From a virus: 26,352 bases of DNA. Position 1 is the first letter of the stretch; every line of letters starts with the position of its first letter. The notes beneath the pieces were generated by a model. The model ran no database searches. It was not told the DNA's origin and saw only the letters and a program-made list of their open reading frames with translations. Of the stretch, positions 1 through 18,873 are shown in pieces. Position numbers and translations under genes: made by a program. The DNA lies in the IMG/VR virus record IMGVR_UViG_3300010885_007733, positions 1 through 26,352 of that record; one strand, given 5' to 3'.

Positions 1-294
1 ATTGAATAGATTGTTTGTGGAATAACTATTACCTAATGGAAGAATATTGATTACACCAATGACAGAATCATCTATTGAAAGATACTTATTGTCAATGTCT
101 GTTTGCGTAACTTGATGTGCTAGATAGACTTTTTCTGTTGCGTCATAGTGATAGTCGTAGTAATATGAAAATGCCATCTCTATGCAGTCTTCAACTTGTT
201 CGTCTGCTACGTTTATCTCTAAGAGAGGCGCACCTAGTCTTCTAAGGCAGAATTCTTTTAATTCTTCTCTTGATGCTGGCTTGCTTATACTCAT
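1..294 (-). CDS. 13: gp13-like neck protein, N-terminal part (cut by window edge)
   Basis: The N-terminal 98 codons are present, starting at the ATG at 292-294; the rest lies beyond the left edge. Residues 11-30 (LKEFCLRRLGAPLLEINVAD) and the following region up to the YDYHYDATEK stretch align well with the start of T4 gp13, which I recall as LKDVILRRLGAP followed by a YGEYHFDGLNK-like segment. In T4, gp13 (about 309 residues) forms the neck with gp14. It closes the filled head and provides the surface on which the finished tail docks. The start is supported by AAGGGG eight to nine bases upstream and an exact late promoter about 30 bases upstream. It follows a terminator, so it begins its own transcription unit. 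Family assignment is by remembered similarity; I am fairly sure. Confidence 0.85.
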   Translation of the reverse strand, partial: MSISKPASREELKEFCLRRLGAPLLEINVADEQVEDCIEMAFSYYYDYHYDATEKVYLAHQVTQTDIDNKYLSIDDSVIGVINILPLGNSYSTNNLFN

Positions 295-344: not shown

Positions 345-373
345 ATAAAAAACCCACCAAGAAGGTGGGTTTT
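345..373 (-). terminator. Rho-independent terminator after the tail-fibre operon
   Basis: On the minus strand a perfect 10-bp stem (AAAACCCACC pairing with GGTGGGTTTT) encloses a 5-base loop and runs into a T-rich tract (TTTTTTATTTT on the transcript-like strand). It comes 24 bases after the stop of the 86-residue gene. It therefore ends the long baseplate/fibre transcript and insulates it from the gp13 promoter at 325-332. On the plus strand the stem is followed by GGG rather than a T tract, so it should act mainly for minus-strand transcripts. Confidence 0.88.
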
Positions 374-396: not shown

Positions 397-657
397 TTAC
401 GCTTGTGCTTCTGCGTGTTGCTTAGCCAAGTCTTCTGCCGCTTTGACTTCGGCTTGATGAATAGCGGCAAAAACTTCTTCGTCAGTTTTTCCTGGATACA
501 AATCGACCAATGCGCCATCGGCTAATTTATATCTAACATCAAGTTTAGATTGACCTGCTGATATTGGGAATGATGCGATAGCATTTTTTGGCTCATCTTC
601 TGGAAAAGCAAAGTCCATCACATGGCCTTCAGTTTCAGTAAAAAAATAAATTTTCAT
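397..657 (-). CDS. small hypothetical protein after the adhesin array
   Basis: An 86-residue protein I do not recognise. It starts with a beta-like segment (MKIYFFTETEGHVMDFAF). A middle part contains KLADGALVDLYPG, followed by an Ala/Glu/Lys-rich helical tail (about residues 58-86). The ATG at 655-657 is preceded by AAAAAGGAA at a good distance, so translation looks real. It lies 34 bases downstream of the third adhesin paralogue and directly before the terminator, as the last gene of the operon. Phage genes in this position behind fibre genes are often fibre-assembly chaperones or small fibre-tip proteins. That is inference from position only, with no motif to confirm it. Confidence 0.6.
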   Translation of the reverse strand: MKIYFFTETEGHVMDFAFPEDEPKNAIASFPISAGQSKLDVRYKLADGALVDLYPGKTDEEVFAAIHQAEVKAAEDLAKQHAEAQA

Positions 658-691: not shown

Positions 692-2053
692 TTAAGTGTT
701 TTTAGCACCCAACATATGCGATGGTAGAAGCATATAGTCCGTTACTTGAGTCATTCCAGGATAGTTTGTTGTATTTGGTCCTGGATGATATGGTGCATAG
801 TATGCGCCGTTTTGAGCCACATGCCCGCCTGTACTTTGTTTAATGTATTGGGCGATTGCATAACCGCCGCTGTAGTTACTTGCATAACTATTGCCGTTAT
901 ACCAAAACAACCAACCAGCATCTCCATATGGCAGACAAGCAATACCATAAGATGTGCCATTTTGTGAATATACGGTATATGTGTTATTCGTCTTGTCGAT
1001 CATAAAAGATTTAATACCGGAACCATAGTAGTAGTATGGACAGAATGTTGCTACTGAAGTACCATCTCTAGAGGTAATTGATTTTTGACCATAATAATCA
1101 CCTTGATCTCTGCCATAAGATGTTGTTGTGCTTTGGCCAGCAATATAAGTTGCTGTAATAGCGGAAGTACCAGAACGTGTGAATCTATATAATGCAAGTC
1201 TGTCTGAAGTAAAGAATACGGAAACATAAACGTTTCCGTTGTCTGTTGTAATAGGCTTTAGATTGTAATAAGATTCAGTATTATTAGTGCCCCAACTGCT
1301 AGCCAAATTTAATGTTGCATCGACACGAACAACTTCAGGTCTGTTTAATGCAACATAAGGATCAGGATATGTATCAAAGTCTACGTTCTGATACGTAAAG
1401 CAATTATATGATCCATTAGAAGTAACATAACTAATGATCGTTAATTCTTTTCTTACTCTGTGATAAGATGCTGATCCAGTCATGCTACTGTCCAAACTAG
1501 TAACGCTAAAGTCTCTTGTATTGGTCATAGGATAACTCAGGTCGCCAAATAATCTATCTACGGCACGAATTACGCCACTACGTAAAATATATACAATTCT
1601 TTTATTCAAGTGGTCACTATTAATAGCAGACAAATTCAAATACCATTTGGAAGTAGTGCTGGTATTTCGGCACGATCCTGGCTGAATTGTTCCATCACTA
1701 TATGCATCAACACATGAATTTCCAAATTCACCATAACTGTTTGTTCCACTAAGAAATCGACCAGAGTTTGAAGACGTGCTTGTTTGCGTGAAGGTGTCCA
1801 TATCCTGGAAAAGTCCGGTGGCATCTTGATACGTATCGGCAGCAACATATGTAATATGATCTGGACCGCCAGTGCCATAAGAAGTTTCATAACCAGTATT
1901 AAATACCGGATTTATGTTTGGGCCATACCAAGCACATCCACCCCAAGTACTAGATGTATTGCGTGATAAGTATGCATAGGATGCACGTTTTCCCGAGCCG
2001 GTAATTCCCGAATCGGTTCCGGCACTAAATATTCCTGAATTTGTGATTGCCAT
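692..2053 (-). CDS. tandem adhesin-like structural protein, copy 3 in transcription order
   Basis: A 453-residue Tyr/Ser/Asn/Gly-rich protein, the most downstream of three adjacent paralogues of exactly equal length. Conserved parts shared with the other two are an N-terminal block (about 9-36, containing DSGITGSGKRA and LSRNTSST), a long core (about 140-248, containing INSDH, RIVYIL, IRAVDRL and FDTYPDPYVALNRPEVVRV), a block near 330-360 (SRDGTSVATFCPYYYYGSG) and the C-terminal PGPNTTNYPG/TQVTDY segment. Between these, about 40-135, 280-290 and 360-420 are strongly divergent. There is no signal peptide, membrane segment or catalytic motif. In T4 this position between gp8 and gp13 holds short tail fibre and whisker genes, so a peripheral baseplate or receptor-binding role is likely but inferred. 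The start has AAAAGGA eight bases upstream. Confidence 0.75.
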   Translation of the reverse strand: MAITNSGIFSAGTDSGITGSGKRASYAYLSRNTSSTWGGCAWYGPNINPVFNTGYETSYGTGGPDHITYVAADTYQDATGLFQDMDTFTQTSTSSNSGRFLSGTNSYGEFGNSCVDAYSDGTIQPGSCRNTSTTSKWYLNLSAINSDHLNKRIVYILRSGVIRAVDRLFGDLSYPMTNTRDFSVTSLDSSMTGSASYHRVRKELTIISYVTSNGSYNCFTYQNVDFDTYPDPYVALNRPEVVRVDATLNLASSWGTNNTESYYNLKPITTDNGNVYVSVFFTSDRLALYRFTRSGTSAITATYIAGQSTTTSYGRDQGDYYGQKSITSRDGTSVATFCPYYYYGSGIKSFMIDKTNNTYTVYSQNGTSYGIACLPYGDAGWLFWYNGNSYASNYSGGYAIAQYIKQSTGGHVAQNGAYYAPYHPGPNTTNYPGMTQVTDYMLLPSHMLGAKNT

Positions 2054-2078
2054 TTAATTTGTCCTTTTCTTTATTTCG

Positions 2079-2094
2079 ATGATATCAATATCAT
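2079..2094. repeat. short palindrome in the gap between two adhesin paralogues
   Basis: The 16 bases read atgatat-ca-atatcat, a perfect 7-bp inverted repeat with a 2-base centre. It lies in the 49-base gap between the second and third adhesin genes, just upstream of the ribosome binding site of the gene at 692-2053. There is no following T tract, so it is not a classic terminator. It could be a weak RNA hairpin or a protein site, or have no function. Confidence 0.35.
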
Positions 2095-2102
2095 AGTGTT
2101 AT

Positions 2103-3464
2103 TTATTTAGGGCCATACTTGTTATCATTAAGCAAAACATAGTCCGTTACTTGAGTAAATCCTGGATAGTTTGTTGTGTTTGGTCCTGGATGATATGGCC
2201 AGTAACCAATAGAGCCACTGTCGGTAAATCCACCAGAAGGTGTTTTAGTGTAAATCGAACTTGAACCGTTGCCACTATAGTTACTTGCATATCCGTTGCC
2301 GGCATAAGTAAACATCCAACCACTATCACCAAATGGCATAATTATACGCCCATAAGTGCTATCAGCAGTACCATAGGAGCCGTATGTGTTATTTGTTTTA
2401 TCAATCATAAAACACCTGATGCCGGAACCATAGTAGTAGTACGGGCAGAATGTTGCTACAGTAGTACCATCTCTAGAAGTAATTTGTCTTTGACCATATT
2501 CAAAACTTTGATCGAAACCATAAGAAGTTGTCAACGATTGGCCAGCAATATAAGTTGCTGTAATAGCGGCAGTACCAGAACGTGTGAATTGATACAGACG
2601 AAAATTATTGTTGGTGTACATTATTGTAACGTAAACATTTCCGTTATCCGTTGTAACGGGCTTTAGATTATAATAGGATTCAGCATTATTCACTTGCCAA
2701 GTTGCAGAGAAATCTAGTGTTGCATTGACACGAACAACTTCAGGTCTGTTTAATGCAACATAAGGATCAGGATATGTATCAAAGTCTACATTTGAGTATG
2801 TATAAACATTAAATGATCCGCCAGAAGTAACATAACTAATGATCGTTAATTCTTTTCTTTTTCTATGATAAGAAGCAGAACCTTGCATAGTACTGTTCAA
2901 AGTAGAAACGCTAAAGTCTGCTGTGTTTTCCATAGGCACATGATATGAACCATATAATCTATCTACGGCACGAATAATACCATCACGTAAAATATAAACA
3001 ATTCTTTTATTCAAGTGGTCACTATTAATAGCGGAAGCATTTAAATAGTGTTTAACACCTGAAGTTGTATATCTATTGTAAATATTACTTAATGTGCCAT
3101 CACTATACGCATCGATCATCGCATTTCCAAACTCACCACAAGCATTCGTACCATTAACCCAATTGTATGTACCGCTACTGCCAGGATATTCTTGAGTTCC
3201 GGCATACACAGAATTCCAAATTGCATCGTGATATTGATACGTTGAATTAGTATTCTGTACAATGTGACTTCTTGCATATGGATTACGGGTGTATGCTACA
3301 CCAATATTAAAAATTGATTTTGCATAATTATCATAAAAAGCAGCCCCCATGAAAGTGCTAGATGTGTTTCTAGACAACATTGCATAGAATGCTCTTCTTC
3401 CAGTTCCCGTAATTCCCGTGTCTTGTCCTGGAAAAACTTCTGAGAGTGATAGTGGTGTTGGCAT
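2103..3464 (-). CDS. tandem adhesin-like structural protein, copy 2 in transcription order
   Basis: A 453-residue paralogue in the middle of the three-gene array. It shares the N-terminal GITGTGRRAFYAMLSRNTSST-type block, the INSDHLNKRIVYILRDGIIRAVDRLYG core, the SRDGTTVATFCPYYYYGSG block and the PGPNTTNYPGFTQVTDY C-terminus. Its outer N-terminal region resembles the copy at 3500-4861 (YQYHDAIW, GTNACGEFGNAM) more than the copy at 692-2053. Long stretches are identical at the DNA level to neighbours, for example 2727-2789 equals 1322-1384. The gene starts 35 bases after the stop of the upstream copy. A GAGAG-type purine run lies upstream, but spacing to the ATG is long, so coupling to the upstream gene may help. 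The role is inferred as a host-contact component of the baseplate periphery. Confidence 0.75.
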   Translation of the reverse strand: MPTPLSLSEVFPGQDTGITGTGRRAFYAMLSRNTSSTFMGAAFYDNYAKSIFNIGVAYTRNPYARSHIVQNTNSTYQYHDAIWNSVYAGTQEYPGSSGTYNWVNGTNACGEFGNAMIDAYSDGTLSNIYNRYTTSGVKHYLNASAINSDHLNKRIVYILRDGIIRAVDRLYGSYHVPMENTADFSVSTLNSTMQGSASYHRKRKELTIISYVTSGGSFNVYTYSNVDFDTYPDPYVALNRPEVVRVNATLDFSATWQVNNAESYYNLKPVTTDNGNVYVTIMYTNNNFRLYQFTRSGTAAITATYIAGQSLTTSYGFDQSFEYGQRQITSRDGTTVATFCPYYYYGSGIRCFMIDKTNNTYGSYGTADSTYGRIIMPFGDSGWMFTYAGNGYASNYSGNGSSSIYTKTPSGGFTDSGSIGYWPYHPGPNTTNYPGFTQVTDYVLLNDNKYGPK

Positions 3465-3499
3465 TTTATTTTTTTCTCTCTATGTGATATGTTCTCAAC

Positions 3500-4861
3500 T
3501 TATTTAGGTCCACTTGCATTGTCCTGAAGCAAAACATAGTCCGTTACTTGAGTAAATCCTGGATAGTTTGTTGTGTTTGGTCCAGTAAAATATGGCCAAT
3601 ATTGATTACTACTTTCTTGTGAAAACCCACCAGCGGCTGTTTTAGACCATTTAGAATGAACAAAACTGCCAGTATAGTTACTTGAATACATATTTTGACC
3701 CATTGCAAACGACCAACCGCTGTCGCCATATGGTATTGTCATGCATCCAGCGCCTGAAGAGTTTTGACTAAACGTAGTGTATGTGTTATTCGTCTTGTCG
3801 ATCATAAAACATCTGATGCCGGCACCATAGTAATAGTATGGACAGAATGTTGCTACTGAAGTACCATCTCTAGATGTTATCATTCTTTGGCCATAATTCG
3901 CACCTTGATCTCTGCCATAAGAAGTGGTAGTACCTAATGCAGTAATATAAGTTCCAGTTATAGCGGCAGTACCAGAACGTGTGAATCGATACAATATTAA
4001 AGAAGTACCTTCATTAAACACAGATACATAAACGTTTCCGTTATCTGTCGTAACAGGTTTTAAGTTGTAATATGAATCAGAATTATTACCCCAATTAGTG
4101 GACAAACTTAATGTTGCATCGACACGAACCACTTCTGCTCTATTCAATGCAACATAAGGATCAGGATACTTATCAAAGTCTACGTTTTGATATGTAAAGC
4201 AATTGAATGATCCGCCAGAAGTAACATAACTAATGATCGTTAATTCTTTTCTTCCGGCGTGATATGATGCTGATCCAGTCATGCTACCGTTCAAACTAGG
4301 AACGGAAAAGTCCGCAGTATTGTACATCGGAACATGGTATGAACCATACAATCTATCTACGGCACGAATGACACCTGAATACAAAATATAAACAATTCTT
4401 TTATTCGAGTGATCGCTATTTATAGCAGAATAGTTCAATGTATGCTTAACACTTGAATCACCACTATATCTATTGTAAACACTACTTAATGTGCCATCAC
4501 TATACGCATCGACCATTGCGTTTCCGAATTCACCAGATGCATTCGTAGAGTTAACCCAATTGGTTGTACCGTTAGTAGAAGGTTGACTTTGGGTGCCGCC
4601 ATACACAGGACCCCAAATTGCATTATAATATTGATATGTTGAGTTTTCGTTATATACAATGTGTGATGGTGAGTATGTGTTATATTCACCTGGATAACCA
4701 GCGTTGAATATTGCACCGACTACACTTCTATCATAAAAAGCAGCCCCATGCCATGTGCTAGATGTATTTCTACTTAACATTGCATAGAATGCTCTTTTGC
4801 CAGTTCCGGACATGCCGGAATCTTTACCAGCATTAAAGAGGTTTGAGAGTTGAAGTGCCAT
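3500..4861 (-). CDS. tandem adhesin-like structural protein, copy 1 in transcription order
   Basis: The first of the three 453-residue paralogues to be transcribed. Its ATG follows the stop of the 571-residue fibre gene by one base (TAA-A-ATG), with GGAG inside the fibre gene end as the likely ribosome binding site. It should therefore be made together with that fibre. Conserved blocks are as in its paralogues: DSGMSGTGKRAFYAMLSRN near the start, INSDHSNKRIVYIL and IRAVDRLYGSYHVPM in the core, and TNYPGFTQVTDYVLL at the end. Alternating aromatic and Gly/Asp turns (SYYNLKP, DNGNVYV, DGTSVATFCPYYYYG, PYGDSGW) suggest a repeated beta structure, perhaps a propeller. I cannot name a family. A receptor-binding or baseplate-decorating role is inferred from position and composition. 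Confidence 0.75.
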   Translation of the reverse strand: MALQLSNLFNAGKDSGMSGTGKRAFYAMLSRNTSSTWHGAAFYDRSVVGAIFNAGYPGEYNTYSPSHIVYNENSTYQYYNAIWGPVYGGTQSQPSTNGTTNWVNSTNASGEFGNAMVDAYSDGTLSSVYNRYSGDSSVKHTLNYSAINSDHSNKRIVYILYSGVIRAVDRLYGSYHVPMYNTADFSVPSLNGSMTGSASYHAGRKELTIISYVTSGGSFNCFTYQNVDFDKYPDPYVALNRAEVVRVDATLSLSTNWGNNSDSYYNLKPVTTDNGNVYVSVFNEGTSLILYRFTRSGTAAITGTYITALGTTTSYGRDQGANYGQRMITSRDGTSVATFCPYYYYGAGIRCFMIDKTNNTYTTFSQNSSGAGCMTIPYGDSGWSFAMGQNMYSSNYTGSFVHSKWSKTAAGGFSQESSNQYWPYFTGPNTTNYPGFTQVTDYVLLQDNASGPK

Positions 4862-4862
4862 T

Positions 4863-6578
4863 TTAGATAATTCTCCATCCGTAAGTTGTATTATATACTA
4901 ATGATATTGATGTGTTTATCATGTCGAGATAAACAATATTGTTAGCACCTTGAAGTCTGTTGCCGTTATTGTTAACGATCAATGGGCGTGTGTTAAATGT
5001 TCCTGCTACGTCTGCAATAGCGACTCTCGCATTGTTTGATGGCGATGCAGGTAGAAGAACCGTGAACGAACCATTCGCTGTGTCGCAGAATAAGTTATCG
5101 CCAGCGACTGCTGTGTAGTTGTTGTTTGCTGTTGTCTTAATTGTCCAAGATGCTGAACCGCTATTGTTGTCAACGTAGTTCTTAACAGCCCATGCAGTTG
5201 GAACAGCAGTATTAGCGGCACCAGCGAATGTTTGGTCTGTTGTGAATGCTGAAATTGTTGCACCAGTGTTTGCTGTGAAACTTGTTGCATAAACAGCACC
5301 GTTTGCACCGATACCACCAGAGACAATCAACGCACCAGTAGTTTTGCTAGATGATGCTGTTGTGTCTACTGCCTTGAGTGTACCAACTTGAAGTGTCGAG
5401 TATGTATTGTTTGCATTCGTAAAATCAACTGTGTTATTAGGTCTTGCAGAATTTCCAGAGAACAACTTAAATACACCAGAGTCACTTGCATCACGAACAA
5501 GACCAGCATATTTTCTACCACTAGATAAGTATTCACCAACAATACCTAAGTCGAGAATGTCTGCGGCATTGTTTGAACCCAAGAAAACCATTGGATTGTC
5601 AACGCTCAATGATGATGTAGAAACTGTGTTACCGCCACCACCAAGTGTAATTGTACCTGTAATTGCAACGTTACCACCAACGTTCAAGTTACCACGTAGA
5701 CCAATACCACCGTTAACGACAAGCGCACCAGTCGTAGTGTTTGAAGACTGTGTAGCAATAGTGATTGCAACGCTTTGTCCTGGAGTAATAATCACCTGTT
5801 GATTATTTGCAGGATCCGAAAAACCACCAGCACCAAGAATAATTTGATTCCTTGTACCATTAGAACCAGTAGCGATAATTAAATTACCATTTCCTGATGT
5901 TCCGCTCTTTGCTTCGTACAAAAGATATCCGTCATCTGGACCAGTAATTGAGTATGTTGCTTGAGAGTAGTTATTACTATTTACACCAGTTGAAATCCAA
6001 CCATCATTACTAGTGCCTGATGTTCCGTATGCAATGAATTCTGCGTATGCGTTTGCGCCTGCATTTGTGTTAACAATAGCATAGTCTCTTGAACCGTTAT
6101 TATTACCAACACCTAAAAATAAATGTTGGTTTTGATCTTCACCTCGACTGGTCAACCAAGCATCGCCGGCTGTCAACGCATCTGCGGCGCCGATTGATTG
6201 AAAATGACGGCCAATTGAGTTACTTGTATATGTATTTGCGGTAGTAATAATTGCACCGTTAGCCGCAATTAAATTAATAAGTGAACCAGACTTTATATTT
6301 CCTGCAACAGTTAAAGCGGCTGTTCCAGAATTAAACGCAAGTCCAGAAGCATCGGTGATTGATCCTGATGCCGCAACAAAAGGTACTCTACCTGATGTAA
6401 GTGTGCTAATGTTCAACGTATTTGCGGCAACGCCAGCGGCAAACAAAGATTGATTTGAAAACGTTGCTGGAGTTGCAGTTGTGCCGTCAGTAAATGAATT
6501 TACCGTATTACTAACGTTGTTTACGGTCTGTCTAAATTCATTGAATGTGTTAGACAAGTTAACTTGTAGAATAGTCAT
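4863..6578 (-). CDS. tail fibre protein
   Basis: A 571-residue fibre-type protein, rich in Asn, Thr, Gly and Ala. The N-terminus (LSNTFNEFRQTVNNVSNTVN) resembles the attachment segment of fibre proteins from marine T4-like phages. Two related repeats follow, TTTGALVVNGGIGLRG at about 280 and KTTGALIVSGGIGANG at about 412. Between them a module (NPMVFLGSNNAADILDLG, then LVRDASDSGVFKLF) matches ones I recall in cyanophage fibres. The last 100 residues, containing AVAGDNLFCDTANGSFTVLL and ending YNTTYGWRII, look like a compact beta-sandwich fibre tip. The start codon overlaps the stop of the 84-residue gene by 4 bases (ATGA), so the two are translationally coupled. It likely mediates host contact from the baseplate rim. 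No enzymatic motif is seen. Confidence 0.82.
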   Translation of the reverse strand: MTILQVNLSNTFNEFRQTVNNVSNTVNSFTDGTTATPATFSNQSLFAAGVAANTLNISTLTSGRVPFVAASGSITDASGLAFNSGTAALTVAGNIKSGSLINLIAANGAIITTANTYTSNSIGRHFQSIGAADALTAGDAWLTSRGEDQNQHLFLGVGNNNGSRDYAIVNTNAGANAYAEFIAYGTSGTSNDGWISTGVNSNNYSQATYSITGPDDGYLLYEAKSGTSGNGNLIIATGSNGTRNQIILGAGGFSDPANNQQVIITPGQSVAITIATQSSNTTTGALVVNGGIGLRGNLNVGGNVAITGTITLGGGGNTVSTSSLSVDNPMVFLGSNNAADILDLGIVGEYLSSGRKYAGLVRDASDSGVFKLFSGNSARPNNTVDFTNANNTYSTLQVGTLKAVDTTASSSKTTGALIVSGGIGANGAVYATSFTANTGATISAFTTDQTFAGAANTAVPTAWAVKNYVDNNSGSASWTIKTTANNNYTAVAGDNLFCDTANGSFTVLLPASPSNNARVAIADVAGTFNTRPLIVNNNGNRLQGANNIVYLDMINTSISLVYNTTYGWRII

Positions 6579-14373: not shown

Positions 14374-17300
14374 TTATATCATTTTGTATGCACTAACTCC
14401 ACTAAACGAATTTATCGGAAGTCTATCGGCAACCATAAATGTCGTGTTTGCTATACTCTCAGTCGCAAAATACTCATTATTTGCAACAAATGCGCTACCT
14501 ATATTAAAGTCTGATACAAAGTTTGTTCCAACACCAGTAATTAGTGACGCCGTTCCCGAAAATACTGTATCGTAAACAGATGATAGAGGTGACAATTCGT
14601 AAACTGAAACTGGCACATCAGTATATGATATGTTGCTAGAAGATACTGTACCAACAATCTTCTGATACTTTATATATGTGCCTGAAGTTACTGGTGCTTG
14701 CGGATATGTTTGTGCAAAAGTCTGTGCGCCAACAATATCTTGAGTGCCAGGAACAACATCATTAAACGTCAAATCAGGAATTGTCAATAGTTTAATGTCA
14801 GCATAGTTTGTGGTATATGCTGATGGAACACTTTGAGATTTAATAACAATCTCATCTCTGAATACATCGGTCGGATTTTTTCTATTACTCTGTGGATGAG
14901 GATTAGATTGTCCGAGTGCAAGCGGCGATGGCGATGCTTTAATTGATCTATCGTATACTGTGTTTTTATATGTATCGAACTGAATATTTTCCAATGCAGA
15001 GATTGGTGTAGAACCGTAGTCCGACAAAAGTTCTTCGTCATATATTCTGAATCTAAATCCATTACCTTCAAACGGAACAACAACTTCAGTATTTGAAGTC
15101 ACAGTAGTAGAATCGGTTATTTTGGTACTTCTAGTCTTAATCAACTCACCAAACACAGTTTGATAGTTAGAGAACATTACACCAAAATCAGATGTTTCGA
15201 ATGTTGGTGATGTTGCATCATATACACTCTGTGGCAGAAGATCGGTAAATCGTTTATTCTCGACCTGTGCCAATGATACATCTCGCATGATTTTATCATA
15301 CTGAGTAATAACATTAGTTCGTGTGTTTACTTTTACTGTATAATTATTAGCGGCAACAGAAGACACGTTCACACGCATATCAGCCAAATCAGTTGGCTTC
15401 AAGATAGATTCTTCAAATATCTTAGTTTCAACGAATGAAATTTGAACGTCAGCATACTCATCCAAGAGTCTTGTATGATATGGAACTAATCGTTTTGCAT
15501 GATTAATAATTGAATATTCTTGTGCGGAATTTAAAGTTGTTACTGCTAAACCTGCACTAAACGTTTTTATTGCTCTAGTAAATGTTCTTTGATAGTTTAC
15601 ATAGATATCAGCAAATACACGGCTCTCATTAGTAACAGGTGTTCCTTCATACACACTTTGTAATGTGTAGTCGCTTAACTTTTGATCCGATGCTTCACCA
15701 ACACGCAAATCTTCAAATGCTATTCTATGAATACCGATTGTAGAATTTTTGCTTGTGTCTTTCTTAGCAGTATTAACAGCAGATGCAACAACATCAACCG
15801 GTACGTTTCCATCAGTCGAACCGCCTCCGGATATCAAGAAGAAGTCGAGTGTAATATCACCTCTTGATGCTACAGTTAAATTTTGCCAATCATCTAGAGT
15901 TACCTCTTGCGCTTGTTTTAAACGTCTTGCATGATTGACTAATTTATATTCTTGTGCAGACAATATATTACATACTGCCTTTTCTGGACTAAACGTCTTT
16001 ATTGCTCTAGTAAATGTTCTCTGATAGTTTACATAGATATCACCAACAGTAGAATTTCCAATGGTAACAGGTGTGCCTTCATAAGCACTTTGTAATGTGT
16101 AGTCATTGAATGTTTGATCTTGGATTACACCAATATTAAAGTCTTGGAAAGTTTGTCTGTGTATTCCAATTGTAGCAGTTTTGCCTGTAAATTTTTGGGC
16201 TGTTTTTGCGCCAGATTCAACGACAGATATAGTTGTATTTGCATCAACTAAACTTTCTGGCGTAATTAAAACGAATTGGAAATTTGTATTCTGTCTTGCA
16301 GATAGAGTTAAATCTTGCCAATCGTTTAAAGTTACCTCTTGTACTTGTGTTACACGTTTTGCGTGGTTGACTAATTTGTATTCGTGCGTATCAGGCTTAG
16401 ATACTGACGTAGTTGGTACAGTAGATAACTTCTTTATCGTTTCTTGATAAATTCTAGCGTAGTTTGAATAGATCGAATCTAACTTCGAATTGCGATATGC
16501 TACTTGTGATCCCTCATAAATGCTCTGAGGAATTATATCATTTAATGTGGATCCCGATAATTCGCCTAACTCCAAATCTGTTATATTTCTACGATACAGA
16601 TTTACTATTGATGCTGGACGTGTGATGCTTAATTCTTCTGTTATTGCACTAGAAGAATTGTTTACAGTCACATTGCTTGTGCCGTTTATCAAATACTGTA
16701 ATGCCAACTTCGTGTATTCGATCTGTGCATTTGTGGTAACAGGTCCAGCAAATAGAGTCATTCTTCCATCTGCTCTAGCCGTTACAGTATTCATTGGAGG
16801 TTCTTCGATTATGAACTTCCATCTGATGTGTGACTCTACATGTGTGATACCAACAGATATCGCTAAACCAGCAAACGCAATTCTGTATTTCTGAAGTTGT
16901 GTAATCAATTCAGAATGAAGATCCATTTCATTAAGAATTTGAATCTCACCAAAGAATTGTAAACCAGCAGGGTGAACAATTTGCTTTAGTGTATCTGCGT
17001 ATGTCTGGAATGTTAAACCACTCTTAATAACATAAGAGTAGTCTTGATAGTAGTATGAGTCTTGAATAACTTTGTAATCAACTTTACCTTCATCATCCAA
17101 CCAAACACCTTCTCTGATACCAAGACCAGAAACGACAGGACTCAATACTGCATTGCCATCACCCAATGTGTTTGCAGATGCATTTGCTGTAGTATAGTTG
17201 ATACCAAAATTTGTAACTTCAACAGCACGAATCGAACCGATACCAGTAATGTTGTTTGATGTGTCTACAGTAACGTTTGCGCTTTTACCTTGAACGTTTG

Positions 17301-18873
17301 TTGCAATTAGACTAGCGCCAACGCCGGTTGTCGTATTGATTGTAATCGTTGGTAGATTACCAGTTTGATATCCAGTACCAAAATTAGTTAACTCAATACG
17401 CTTGATTGGACCCTTTACCGACCAATCTTCATTTTTAACAATGTCGTAATAACTGCCGTCAACAGTCATTCGTTGACCATCTTCAAATAACAAATCGAAT
17501 GTTGTACTCTCTACAACGGATGCAATTTGACCGGCTGCATTTGCGCCAGAGCCACCCGTAAAGATTAAAGTGTTTCCAACTCCATAGTTAGAACCAGCAT
17601 TGTTTATCGTAATTAATTTATCAGATAGTAATCCTAAAGCCGCAATCGGAGTATCTTGTAATGTGATTGCAGGTCTCTTAAAGTAACCTTCACCTCTGTT
17701 GATAACAGAAACTTCTGAAATTTCACCAACAGTATATGTGTTTGCGCCTGAAGTTACTACGTATGTGTTTGCAATTCCAGTAACTTGGACAATGAATCCA
17801 GAACCACCAGTGTCAGTATTGTCGATTGTCGCAAAGGTGTTTAATTGATATCCATGTCCAAGAGTATTTACTTTTAACGCACTAATTGGCGATTCTTTAA
17901 TCGAAATAACTTTTGCTTGTGCTTCGGAACCATCACCAGTAATAGTGATAACGTCACCATCTCTGTATCCAGAACCACCATCAATAACGTTAACTTGAGA
18001 TACGATACCAAAAAGATTTGTAAATAAATTCTCATCAGTAATATCAAAAATCTCTTCACCGCCAACAAACGAACCGCTGACAAGTTTCAATGTCATCTCA
18101 GCAACTTCTCTGGATCCAATAAAGAATTTTTTAATATCTACTACGTTTGCAAGAAAGCCCGTAGTTCTTCCACGAATAGTTTTATTTAAGAATGAGAAAA
18201 TATCTCTAGTGTAAAGATTACCTAACGAATTATATCCATATGCAGATGCGGCAGTTCTAATGACCTGCGTCTTTTCAAACTTACCAGAAGAGACACGAAT
18301 AACGTCAGTTCCTGGATAGTAGAAGTCAATATTATCATCATACAACAACTTGAAAATAAATCGATAAGAATCTTCATTACTCTTGGACTGGAAGAATTCT
18401 CTAAACTTAGATGCAATTACTCGCTTATCGCCATAGTACGTTATTGGAATACTAGGATATAATTCATCCTTCAAATAGTCAATGTATGTGTCGATAGACG
18501 TTTCTACATTGCGATACTCTAATAGTTTTCCTGTTTTGCGAACAACGTTATCTTTAACGAAAGATATCTCAGCCGTTGCGGCTGAAGTTTGTCCTGTAAT
18601 TACTTCGTGTATGCTAAATGGTAGTCTAGTGTCAACTTGTACAATGATTTCACTACCATTGATTTGTTTGATTACTGCTGTTGCGCCAGATGAACCAATA
18701 ATAGTTTCACCACGAACAAAGGTGCCAGTCTGATTTGTAACATCTAATTTTGTTGTTTGCATCCATTCATAGTATGCTTTCATAAACAACAAAAACTTTT
18801 CGGATTCTGTTGCCAGGTCTCCGGAAAGTAATGTTTCTACGCCAAACGATGGCTTGAATTTAGATTCTGACAT
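14374..18873 (-). CDS. 7: gp7-like baseplate wedge protein, rearranged and extended
   Basis: A 1499-residue protein (T4 gp7: 1032). The segment ASKFREFFQSKSNEDSYRFI and the following KLLYDDNIDF correspond to the T4 gp7 stretch around FFESRSYDFYSTKG...YKFLFKVLYNEE. VHPAGLQFFGE near residue 629 corresponds to T4 VHPVGFGFIA. The large T4 N-terminal region seems absent. Residues about 290-585 carry several GGSGY/GTGY beta units and end in QDSYYYQDYSYVI. After the HPAG motif comes an extension of roughly 870 residues with a four-fold repeat of about 144 residues (units near 767, 910, 1054 and 1200; hallmark QSxYEGTPV, then NYQRTF). The last 60 residues are a GVGTNF...SIANTTF barrel-like module. 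gp7 nucleates wedge assembly in T4. It starts 2 bases after the gp6 stop, so it is coupled. Confidence 0.8.
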   Translation of the reverse strand: MSESKFKPSFGVETLLSGDLATESEKFLLFMKAYYEWMQTTKLDVTNQTGTFVRGETIIGSSGATAVIKQINGSEIIVQVDTRLPFSIHEVITGQTSAATAEISFVKDNVVRKTGKLLEYRNVETSIDTYIDYLKDELYPSIPITYYGDKRVIASKFREFFQSKSNEDSYRFIFKLLYDDNIDFYYPGTDVIRVSSGKFEKTQVIRTAASAYGYNSLGNLYTRDIFSFLNKTIRGRTTGFLANVVDIKKFFIGSREVAEMTLKLVSGSFVGGEEIFDITDENLFTNLFGIVSQVNVIDGGSGYRDGDVITITGDGSEAQAKVISIKESPISALKVNTLGHGYQLNTFATIDNTDTGGSGFIVQVTGIANTYVVTSGANTYTVGEISEVSVINRGEGYFKRPAITLQDTPIAALGLLSDKLITINNAGSNYGVGNTLIFTGGSGANAAGQIASVVESTTFDLLFEDGQRMTVDGSYYDIVKNEDWSVKGPIKRIELTNFGTGYQTGNLPTITINTTTGVGASLIATNVQGKSANVTVDTSNNITGIGSIRAVEVTNFGINYTTANASANTLGDGNAVLSPVVSGLGIREGVWLDDEGKVDYKVIQDSYYYQDYSYVIKSGLTFQTYADTLKQIVHPAGLQFFGEIQILNEMDLHSELITQLQKYRIAFAGLAISVGITHVESHIRWKFIIEEPPMNTVTARADGRMTLFAGPVTTNAQIEYTKLALQYLINGTSNVTVNNSSSAITEELSITRPASIVNLYRRNITDLELGELSGSTLNDIIPQSIYEGSQVAYRNSKLDSIYSNYARIYQETIKKLSTVPTTSVSKPDTHEYKLVNHAKRVTQVQEVTLNDWQDLTLSARQNTNFQFVLITPESLVDANTTISVVESGAKTAQKFTGKTATIGIHRQTFQDFNIGVIQDQTFNDYTLQSAYEGTPVTIGNSTVGDIYVNYQRTFTRAIKTFSPEKAVCNILSAQEYKLVNHARRLKQAQEVTLDDWQNLTVASRGDITLDFFLISGGGSTDGNVPVDVVASAVNTAKKDTSKNSTIGIHRIAFEDLRVGEASDQKLSDYTLQSVYEGTPVTNESRVFADIYVNYQRTFTRAIKTFSAGLAVTTLNSAQEYSIINHAKRLVPYHTRLLDEYADVQISFVETKIFEESILKPTDLADMRVNVSSVAANNYTVKVNTRTNVITQYDKIMRDVSLAQVENKRFTDLLPQSVYDATSPTFETSDFGVMFSNYQTVFGELIKTRSTKITDSTTVTSNTEVVVPFEGNGFRFRIYDEELLSDYGSTPISALENIQFDTYKNTVYDRSIKASPSPLALGQSNPHPQSNRKNPTDVFRDEIVIKSQSVPSAYTTNYADIKLLTIPDLTFNDVVPGTQDIVGAQTFAQTYPQAPVTSGTYIKYQKIVGTVSSSNISYTDVPVSVYELSPLSSVYDTVFSGTASLITGVGTNFVSDFNIGSAFVANNEYFATESIANTTFMVADRLPINSFSGVSAYKMI
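15557..16042 (-). repeat. internal tandem repeat in the gp7-like gene
   Basis: About 54 bases at 15557-15610 recur almost unchanged (two differences seen) at 15989-16042, an offset of 432 bases or 144 codons. They encode VNYQRTFTRAIKTFS in both. They are the best-preserved part of a longer repeat; matching NHAKR/NHARR segments lie near 16370, 15940 and 15505 at the same period. The high DNA identity implies a recent duplication or continuing exchange within the gene. Confidence 0.8.

Follow-up and report, generated by a model that had tools for sequence, protein, structure and literature searches.

The window, by which we mean the whole analysed stretch of 26,352 nucleotides from an uncultured T4-like phage, contains a T4-like baseplate and tail operon, the last adhesin-like genes of which are three adjacent paralogs situated between a fibre gene and gp13 (Table 1). 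In the order of transcription, the operon reads gp48-like, gp53-like, a tail protein, a phrog_5268 protein, gp5-OB-like, gp25-like and gp6, followed by a protein of 1499 aa, gp8, a DUF4815/VrlC protein of 2039 aa, a protein of 84 aa and a structural protein of 571 aa. After these come the three copies and the 86-aa gene, then a terminator-like hairpin and finally the beginning of gp13. This arrangement has the order gp6 – gp8 – gp10-like – fibre – X – gp13 of the T4-like short-fibre/whisker slot. Hence an earlier note, made from the sequence alone, was right to place the array where T4 keeps its short tail fibre and whisker genes, and the baseplate genes upstream and gp13 downstream support the tail location of the copies. 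The intergenic gaps are short (1 bp between the fibre gene and copy 1, 35 and 49 bp between the copies, and 34 bp after the last one), consistent with a single operon; promoter-like matches before and between the copies are no more frequent than expected by chance. The baseplate regions of HTVC008M, Melnitz-3 and Mosig have comparable gene orders, and tblastn of the phage collection finds no member of the propeller family in these phages.

Table 1. The array and its immediate surroundings in the window
Feature	Coordinates	Strand	Remarks
571-aa structural/fibre gene	4863..6578	-	1 bp upstream of copy 1; likely carrier
Copy 1, first transcribed, predicted propeller adhesin	3500..4861	-	453 aa; C-terminal tag LLQDNASGPK; modelled chain
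Copy 2	2103..3464	-	453 aa; N-terminus 2 residues longer (MPT...), common to copy 2 of L004/L005
Copy 3, last	692..2053	-	453 aa; C-terminal tag LLPSHMLGAKNT, also in the last copy of L004/L005, L006 and L012
86-aa partner gene	397..657	-	in most relatives, a member of its family lies after the propeller gene or array
Intrinsic-terminator-like hairpin and T run	349..373	-	directly after the partner gene; L005 has a similar sequence in the same place
gp13-like neck protein (phrog_211, head-tail adaptor)	1..294	-	truncated at the contig end; identifies the T4 slot

Residues 479–568 of the 571-aa protein match phrog_31104/phrog_4302. This C-terminal domain is common to the genes upstream of two very distant arrays, that of the window and a tandem pair in L149 (gene at 3964–5154), and in the latter it also matches residues ∼70–175 of long tailspike profiles; it may therefore be a docking domain. 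The 1499-aa protein (14374–18873), encoded between gp6 and gp8, seems by eye to contain approximately two tandem repeats of ∼145 residues (EYKLVNHA-R...TFTRAIKTFS), while a BLAST self-comparison at E 1e-3 yielded none. At the opposite contig end (25933–26352), there is a divergent plus-strand head-closure gene (phrog_218).

The three copies are indeed paralogous ORFs of 453 codons each, all on the minus strand. With copy 1 as the query against the window's own record, all three are matched at E < 1e-170, therefore the triplication is not a chance resemblance. Their exactly equal length, emphasised in the earlier note, is partly a coincidence, because the relatives differ by 1–3 residues (the propeller lengths are 452/454/454 and 456 aa) and the alignment of the copies requires small compensating gaps. 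The protein identity is 69% for copies 1 and 2, 62% for copies 1 and 3, and 60% for copies 2 and 3. The proposed mosaic of near-identical and divergent blocks is seen in the alignment: the 63-bp identity between 1322–1384 and 2727–2789 is exact, copies 1 and 2 have an exact 57-bp run in common near their 3' ends, and the minima of identity fall at alignment columns ∼46–105 (0.17–0.63), ∼285–295 and 361–420.

The propeller superfamily and its partner gene

None of the copies has a match in Pfam, PHROGs, NCBIfam or among the PDB chain sequences; further, no propeller homolog found carries a functional annotation, and the literature searched contains no description of the family. The family was built by scans of IMG/VR followed by a profile search over the fetched loci, which yielded 142 distinct full-length members in 40 contig groups, mostly from uncultured viruses. 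The copy number, which is a lower bound since contigs end, is one in 20 groups, two in 15 and three in five.

The closest relatives are L004 and L005, with three copies each and propeller proteins identical between the two, L006, which is cut by the contig start and has at least two copies, and L012, a fragment with the last copy. Both complete arrays of this clade, that of the window and that of L004/L005, have exactly three copies, and its sister lineage, L014–L016, has one. The T4-like L029 and L121 have a single copy in the same slot (fibre – propeller – small gene – gp13) at ∼16–20% identity. With copy 1 as the tblastn query, the only phage found in a collection of 50,697 phage records is Acidithiobacillus phage AcaML1 (in three deposits), and distant superfamily members used as queries against the same collection find nothing. 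In the species genomes, one bacterial contig, from Tepidimonas thermarum, has a family member. A near-universal motif of the superfamily, TTSYG-DQG--YG-R...D...PYYYYG-G, occupies residues 312–348 of copy 1.

Two related loci deserve separate description. In L112/L113 (5917–10048), distant relatives of the window, there is a separate three-copy array whose copies overlap or abut and are much more mutually divergent. In L005 (11789–16721) and L004 (7915–12847), genes of 460, 361 and 790 aa, the first and the last of them fibre-like, are inserted between the partner gene and gp13; this module is missing from the corresponding place in the window and L006.

In most clades, the propeller gene or array is followed by a small gene with the motif RY-L-G--VD-YPGKTDEEV. 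An IMG/VR scan with the small protein alone retrieved 51 loci, and in 50 of them a propeller gene ends at most 300 bp upstream, the remaining one being at a contig end. Many of these 50 are near-duplicates, hence they are not 50 independent events, although several clades are spanned. In the phage collection, the small protein likewise occurs only in AcaML1. Conversely, the 142 propeller genes are followed by the partner in 78 cases, by another copy in 23, by a contig edge in one and by neither in 40. Most of the latter are second copies in two-copy arrays with the small gene after the first copy; the remainder include the clade of L026, L029, L037, L041 and L044, where a different-looking small gene is observed. 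In the window clade, there is a single partner gene per array, after the last copy. The linkage shows that the partner gene is dedicated to the propeller genes.

Predicted fold and known propellers

The AlphaFold2 model of copy 1, constructed with 90 aligned relatives, is a beta-propeller of successive antiparallel strands (pLDDT 82, pTM 0.87) in which the blade number is not fixed; a model based on eight close sequences only (pLDDT 42) was set aside. About 430 residues of the chain form the propeller; the prediction is poor for the first ∼20 residues, for two loops and at the very C-terminus. Neither a trimerising stem nor another oligomerisation domain is visible in the model. The great majority of the matches listed by Foldseek and VIA-align are beta-propellers, the PLL/PHL, AofleA, RSL and AOL/AFL/AAL lectins being prominent, and the best match is modest (VIA Z 9.8, TM ∼0.3). 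Hence the fold class is well supported and no close structural relative is known. The adhesin-like nature of the copies, suggested in the earlier note, is supported by this fold and by the lectin propellers among the best matches; a propeller fold alone is no proof of sugar binding. Taken with the distribution described above, these data show that the superfamily, which has no name, is a widespread one of tail operons and that its propeller fold is predicted with confidence.

In nine close members, the entropy is higher in one set of alternate loops, with the mean difference of 0.47, which is reached by 5 of 240 circular shifts. This test relies on the predicted strand borders and is moderately significant; it provides moderate evidence that variability is concentrated on one face of the predicted propeller.

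The hypothetical proteins gp52–gp53 of AcaML1 are a homologous propeller (26–30% identity) with the same partner gene directly downstream, and gp52 sits in a Mu-like tail module. Unlike the window, AcaML1 has a Mu-like contractile tail, a single propeller copy, and a partner protein whose C-terminus carries an additional domain. The literature searched contains no functional study of gp52–gp53.

The receptor-binding protein gp45 of Staphylococcus phage phi11 is the product of one gene and forms a homotrimer that combines a triple-helical stem with a five-bladed propeller and tower domains (PMC4901313); PRD1 P2 and phiKZ gp131C are mentioned in the same paper, these three being known or putative receptor-binding proteins that use a propeller. 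The window copies resemble gp45 in the predicted beta-propeller and in the receptor-binding role that we infer for them. However, the window chain is nearly all propeller, is encoded in three gene copies and has no PDB sequence match; as the model has neither the N-terminal triple-helical stem nor the C-terminal tower, it is not a trimeric propeller protein of the phi11 type.

The Photorhabdus lectins PLL/PHL and the fungal and bacterial fucose lectins AofleA, AOL, AAL and RSL have the same propeller fold and are among the best structural matches, but they are only ∼6–13% identical and are lectins of cells, not phage tail parts; the likeness is one of fold. Pectobacterium phage CBB encodes three Kelch-like propeller proteins near each other, one of which was found in the virion (PMC5259590). 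A CBB Kelch-like protein is among the Foldseek matches of the window model; unlike the window, CBB is a giant phage with Kelch repeats and a different genomic setting. T4 gp12 and fibritin (wac) are encoded in the corresponding slot, which lies after the baseplate wedge genes and before gp13. The copies have no profile similarity to known short tail fibre or whisker families, as none of them has a PHROG, Pfam or NCBIfam match; besides, the predicted fold is a propeller and not a trimeric fibre, the genes are three paralogs, and the partner gene is different.

History of the array

In the superfamily tree, constructed by a quick method with SH-aLRT support only, copies in the same position cluster across genomes in several clades, which yields about five separate expansions: the window clade, L035/L055, L112/L113, L034/L073 and L042/L145/L149, with L144 a possible sixth. 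Multi-copy sets, present in 20 of the 40 contig groups, thus do recur in relatives.

Within the window clade, the trees of the core (residues 136–362) and of the variable parts (residues 38–108 and 363 to the end) conflict. The DNA tree of the core joins the three copies of the window (87/93) and likewise the two copies of L006 (100/99); the core data reject a constraint that unites the last copies from four genomes (p=1.9e-6). In the tree of the variable parts, the last copies group (77/80, not starred), and a constraint joining the three copies of the window is rejected (p=3.4e-7). At the protein level, the last copy of L012 has a copy-3-like end and a copy-1-like core. Two of the ends are position-specific: copy 3 has its own C-terminal tag, and copy 2 a longer N-terminus. 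Copies 1 and 2 show no position-wise grouping: they pair within the genome over the full length both in the window and in L004, and joining copies 1 of these two genomes (W1+P1) or their copies 2 (W2+P2) is rejected in both the core and the variable segments.

In L004, copies 1 and 2 pass the silent-site runs test (P1/P2, p=0.0002); the window's own copies do not (p=0.07–0.57). Hence we claim exchange only for L004 and for the older history of the clade: the swapping of parts by recombination proposed in the earlier note agrees with the conflict of trees and with the L004 run, but is not supported at silent sites among the window's own copies, whose mosaic could be largely due to constraint. 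At identical residues, codons agree in 0.70 of cases between copies of the window and in 0.81 in L004, versus 0.60 for position-matched copies. The simplest history would be that the array arose long ago and that its copies were later homogenised or underwent exchange, copies 1 and 2 most strongly with each other.

The variable blocks are not the target of a diversity-generating retroelement (DGR), as their substitution spectrum is flat (A-C 14%, A-T 18%, A-G 22%) with no adenine bias; no reverse transcriptase was recognised among the annotated ORFs of the window, a partial contig.

Possible roles of the three copies

The reading that we favour, rating it slightly above an even chance, is that the copies are three versions of one virion-borne propeller tail adhesin with differing receptors. 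Each gene would encode a single-domain beta-propeller of ∼430 residues, flanked by a short N-terminal stretch of poor order and by a short tail at the C-terminus. The place of the propellers on the particle would be the baseplate/short-fibre position, and the 571-aa gene immediately upstream probably supplies the fibre on which they dock. One set of alternate loops and the first ∼100 residues, differing between the copies, would recognise different surface glycans or other receptors, and the scaffold and the opposite loops would stay conserved. The short position-specific end tags probably determine docking, and the small last gene, the dedicated partner, would encode an assembly chaperone or docking factor. 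The virion location, receptor binding by the variable loops, the role of the tags and the partner, and several specificities per particle are inferred, the specificities from variation in sequence only.

The end tags, position-specific at both termini and kept across genomes, would also suit fixed, non-interchangeable subunits of one hetero-oligomer, such as a pseudo-symmetric trimeric tip, in which the divergence reflects contacts and not receptors. The two complete arrays of the clade, with exactly three copies each, agree with such an assembly, and so do the single partner gene behind the array in this clade, the orthology by position in other multi-copy clades and the gaps of only 35 and 49 bp between the copies. 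However, one copy is present in sister lineages (L014, L048, AcaML1) and two in other clades, so the basic unit works without three kinds, and the model lacks a visible oligomerisation domain. We consider a fixed hetero-oligomer rather unlikely, although it should be taken seriously.

Some of the solved structures matched by the model are glycoside hydrolases or sialidases (GH43, NanC), every copy has one Asp-box-like stretch TTDNGNVY, and R170, E262, D273 and D332 are near-invariant across the superfamily. Thus, the copies might be depolymerase or sialidase-like propeller enzymes with different substrates instead of pure adhesins. This seems improbable, as there is no sequence or profile match to any enzyme family, the structural matches are spread over all propeller classes, and the near-invariant charged residues may be structural.

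In T4, the slot also holds the wac/whisker genes, and the cores of the copies are homogenised within genomes; accordingly, the array might be a redundant decoration of the whisker, collar or tail, kept for dosage and diverged by drift. However, about five lineages have stably kept copies that are distinct and specific to their positions, and the variation is focused in particular loops; this is unlike drift or dosage, and makes a redundant decoration still less probable. Finally, the absence so far of a homolog recorded in a virion would fit a secreted or intracellular protein merely sited in the tail operon, but this is very improbable given the tail-operon location in both Mu-like and T4-like phages and the propeller directly after tail fibre genes in L029 and L121.

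Returning to the three-version adhesin, the related two- and three-copy sets with their partner gene suggest that one particle may carry several different cell-gripping heads. A more specific proposal can be put forward only tentatively: arrays of one to three non-identical heads with slot-specific tags and the small partner would give each particle a defined mixed set, exchange in the core keeping the heads compatible while the exposed loops diverge. If true, the mixed-head arrays would be a previously unrecognised tail-adhesin system. The receptor-binding proteins of uncultured phages mostly lack annotation, and the motif TTSYG-DQ...PYYYYGSG together with the partner motif provides a signature by which this widespread family, absent from Pfam, PHROGs and NCBIfam, can be recognised. 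The family's position-conserved sets of one, two or three copies per lineage would be repeated natural experiments in carrying several heads.
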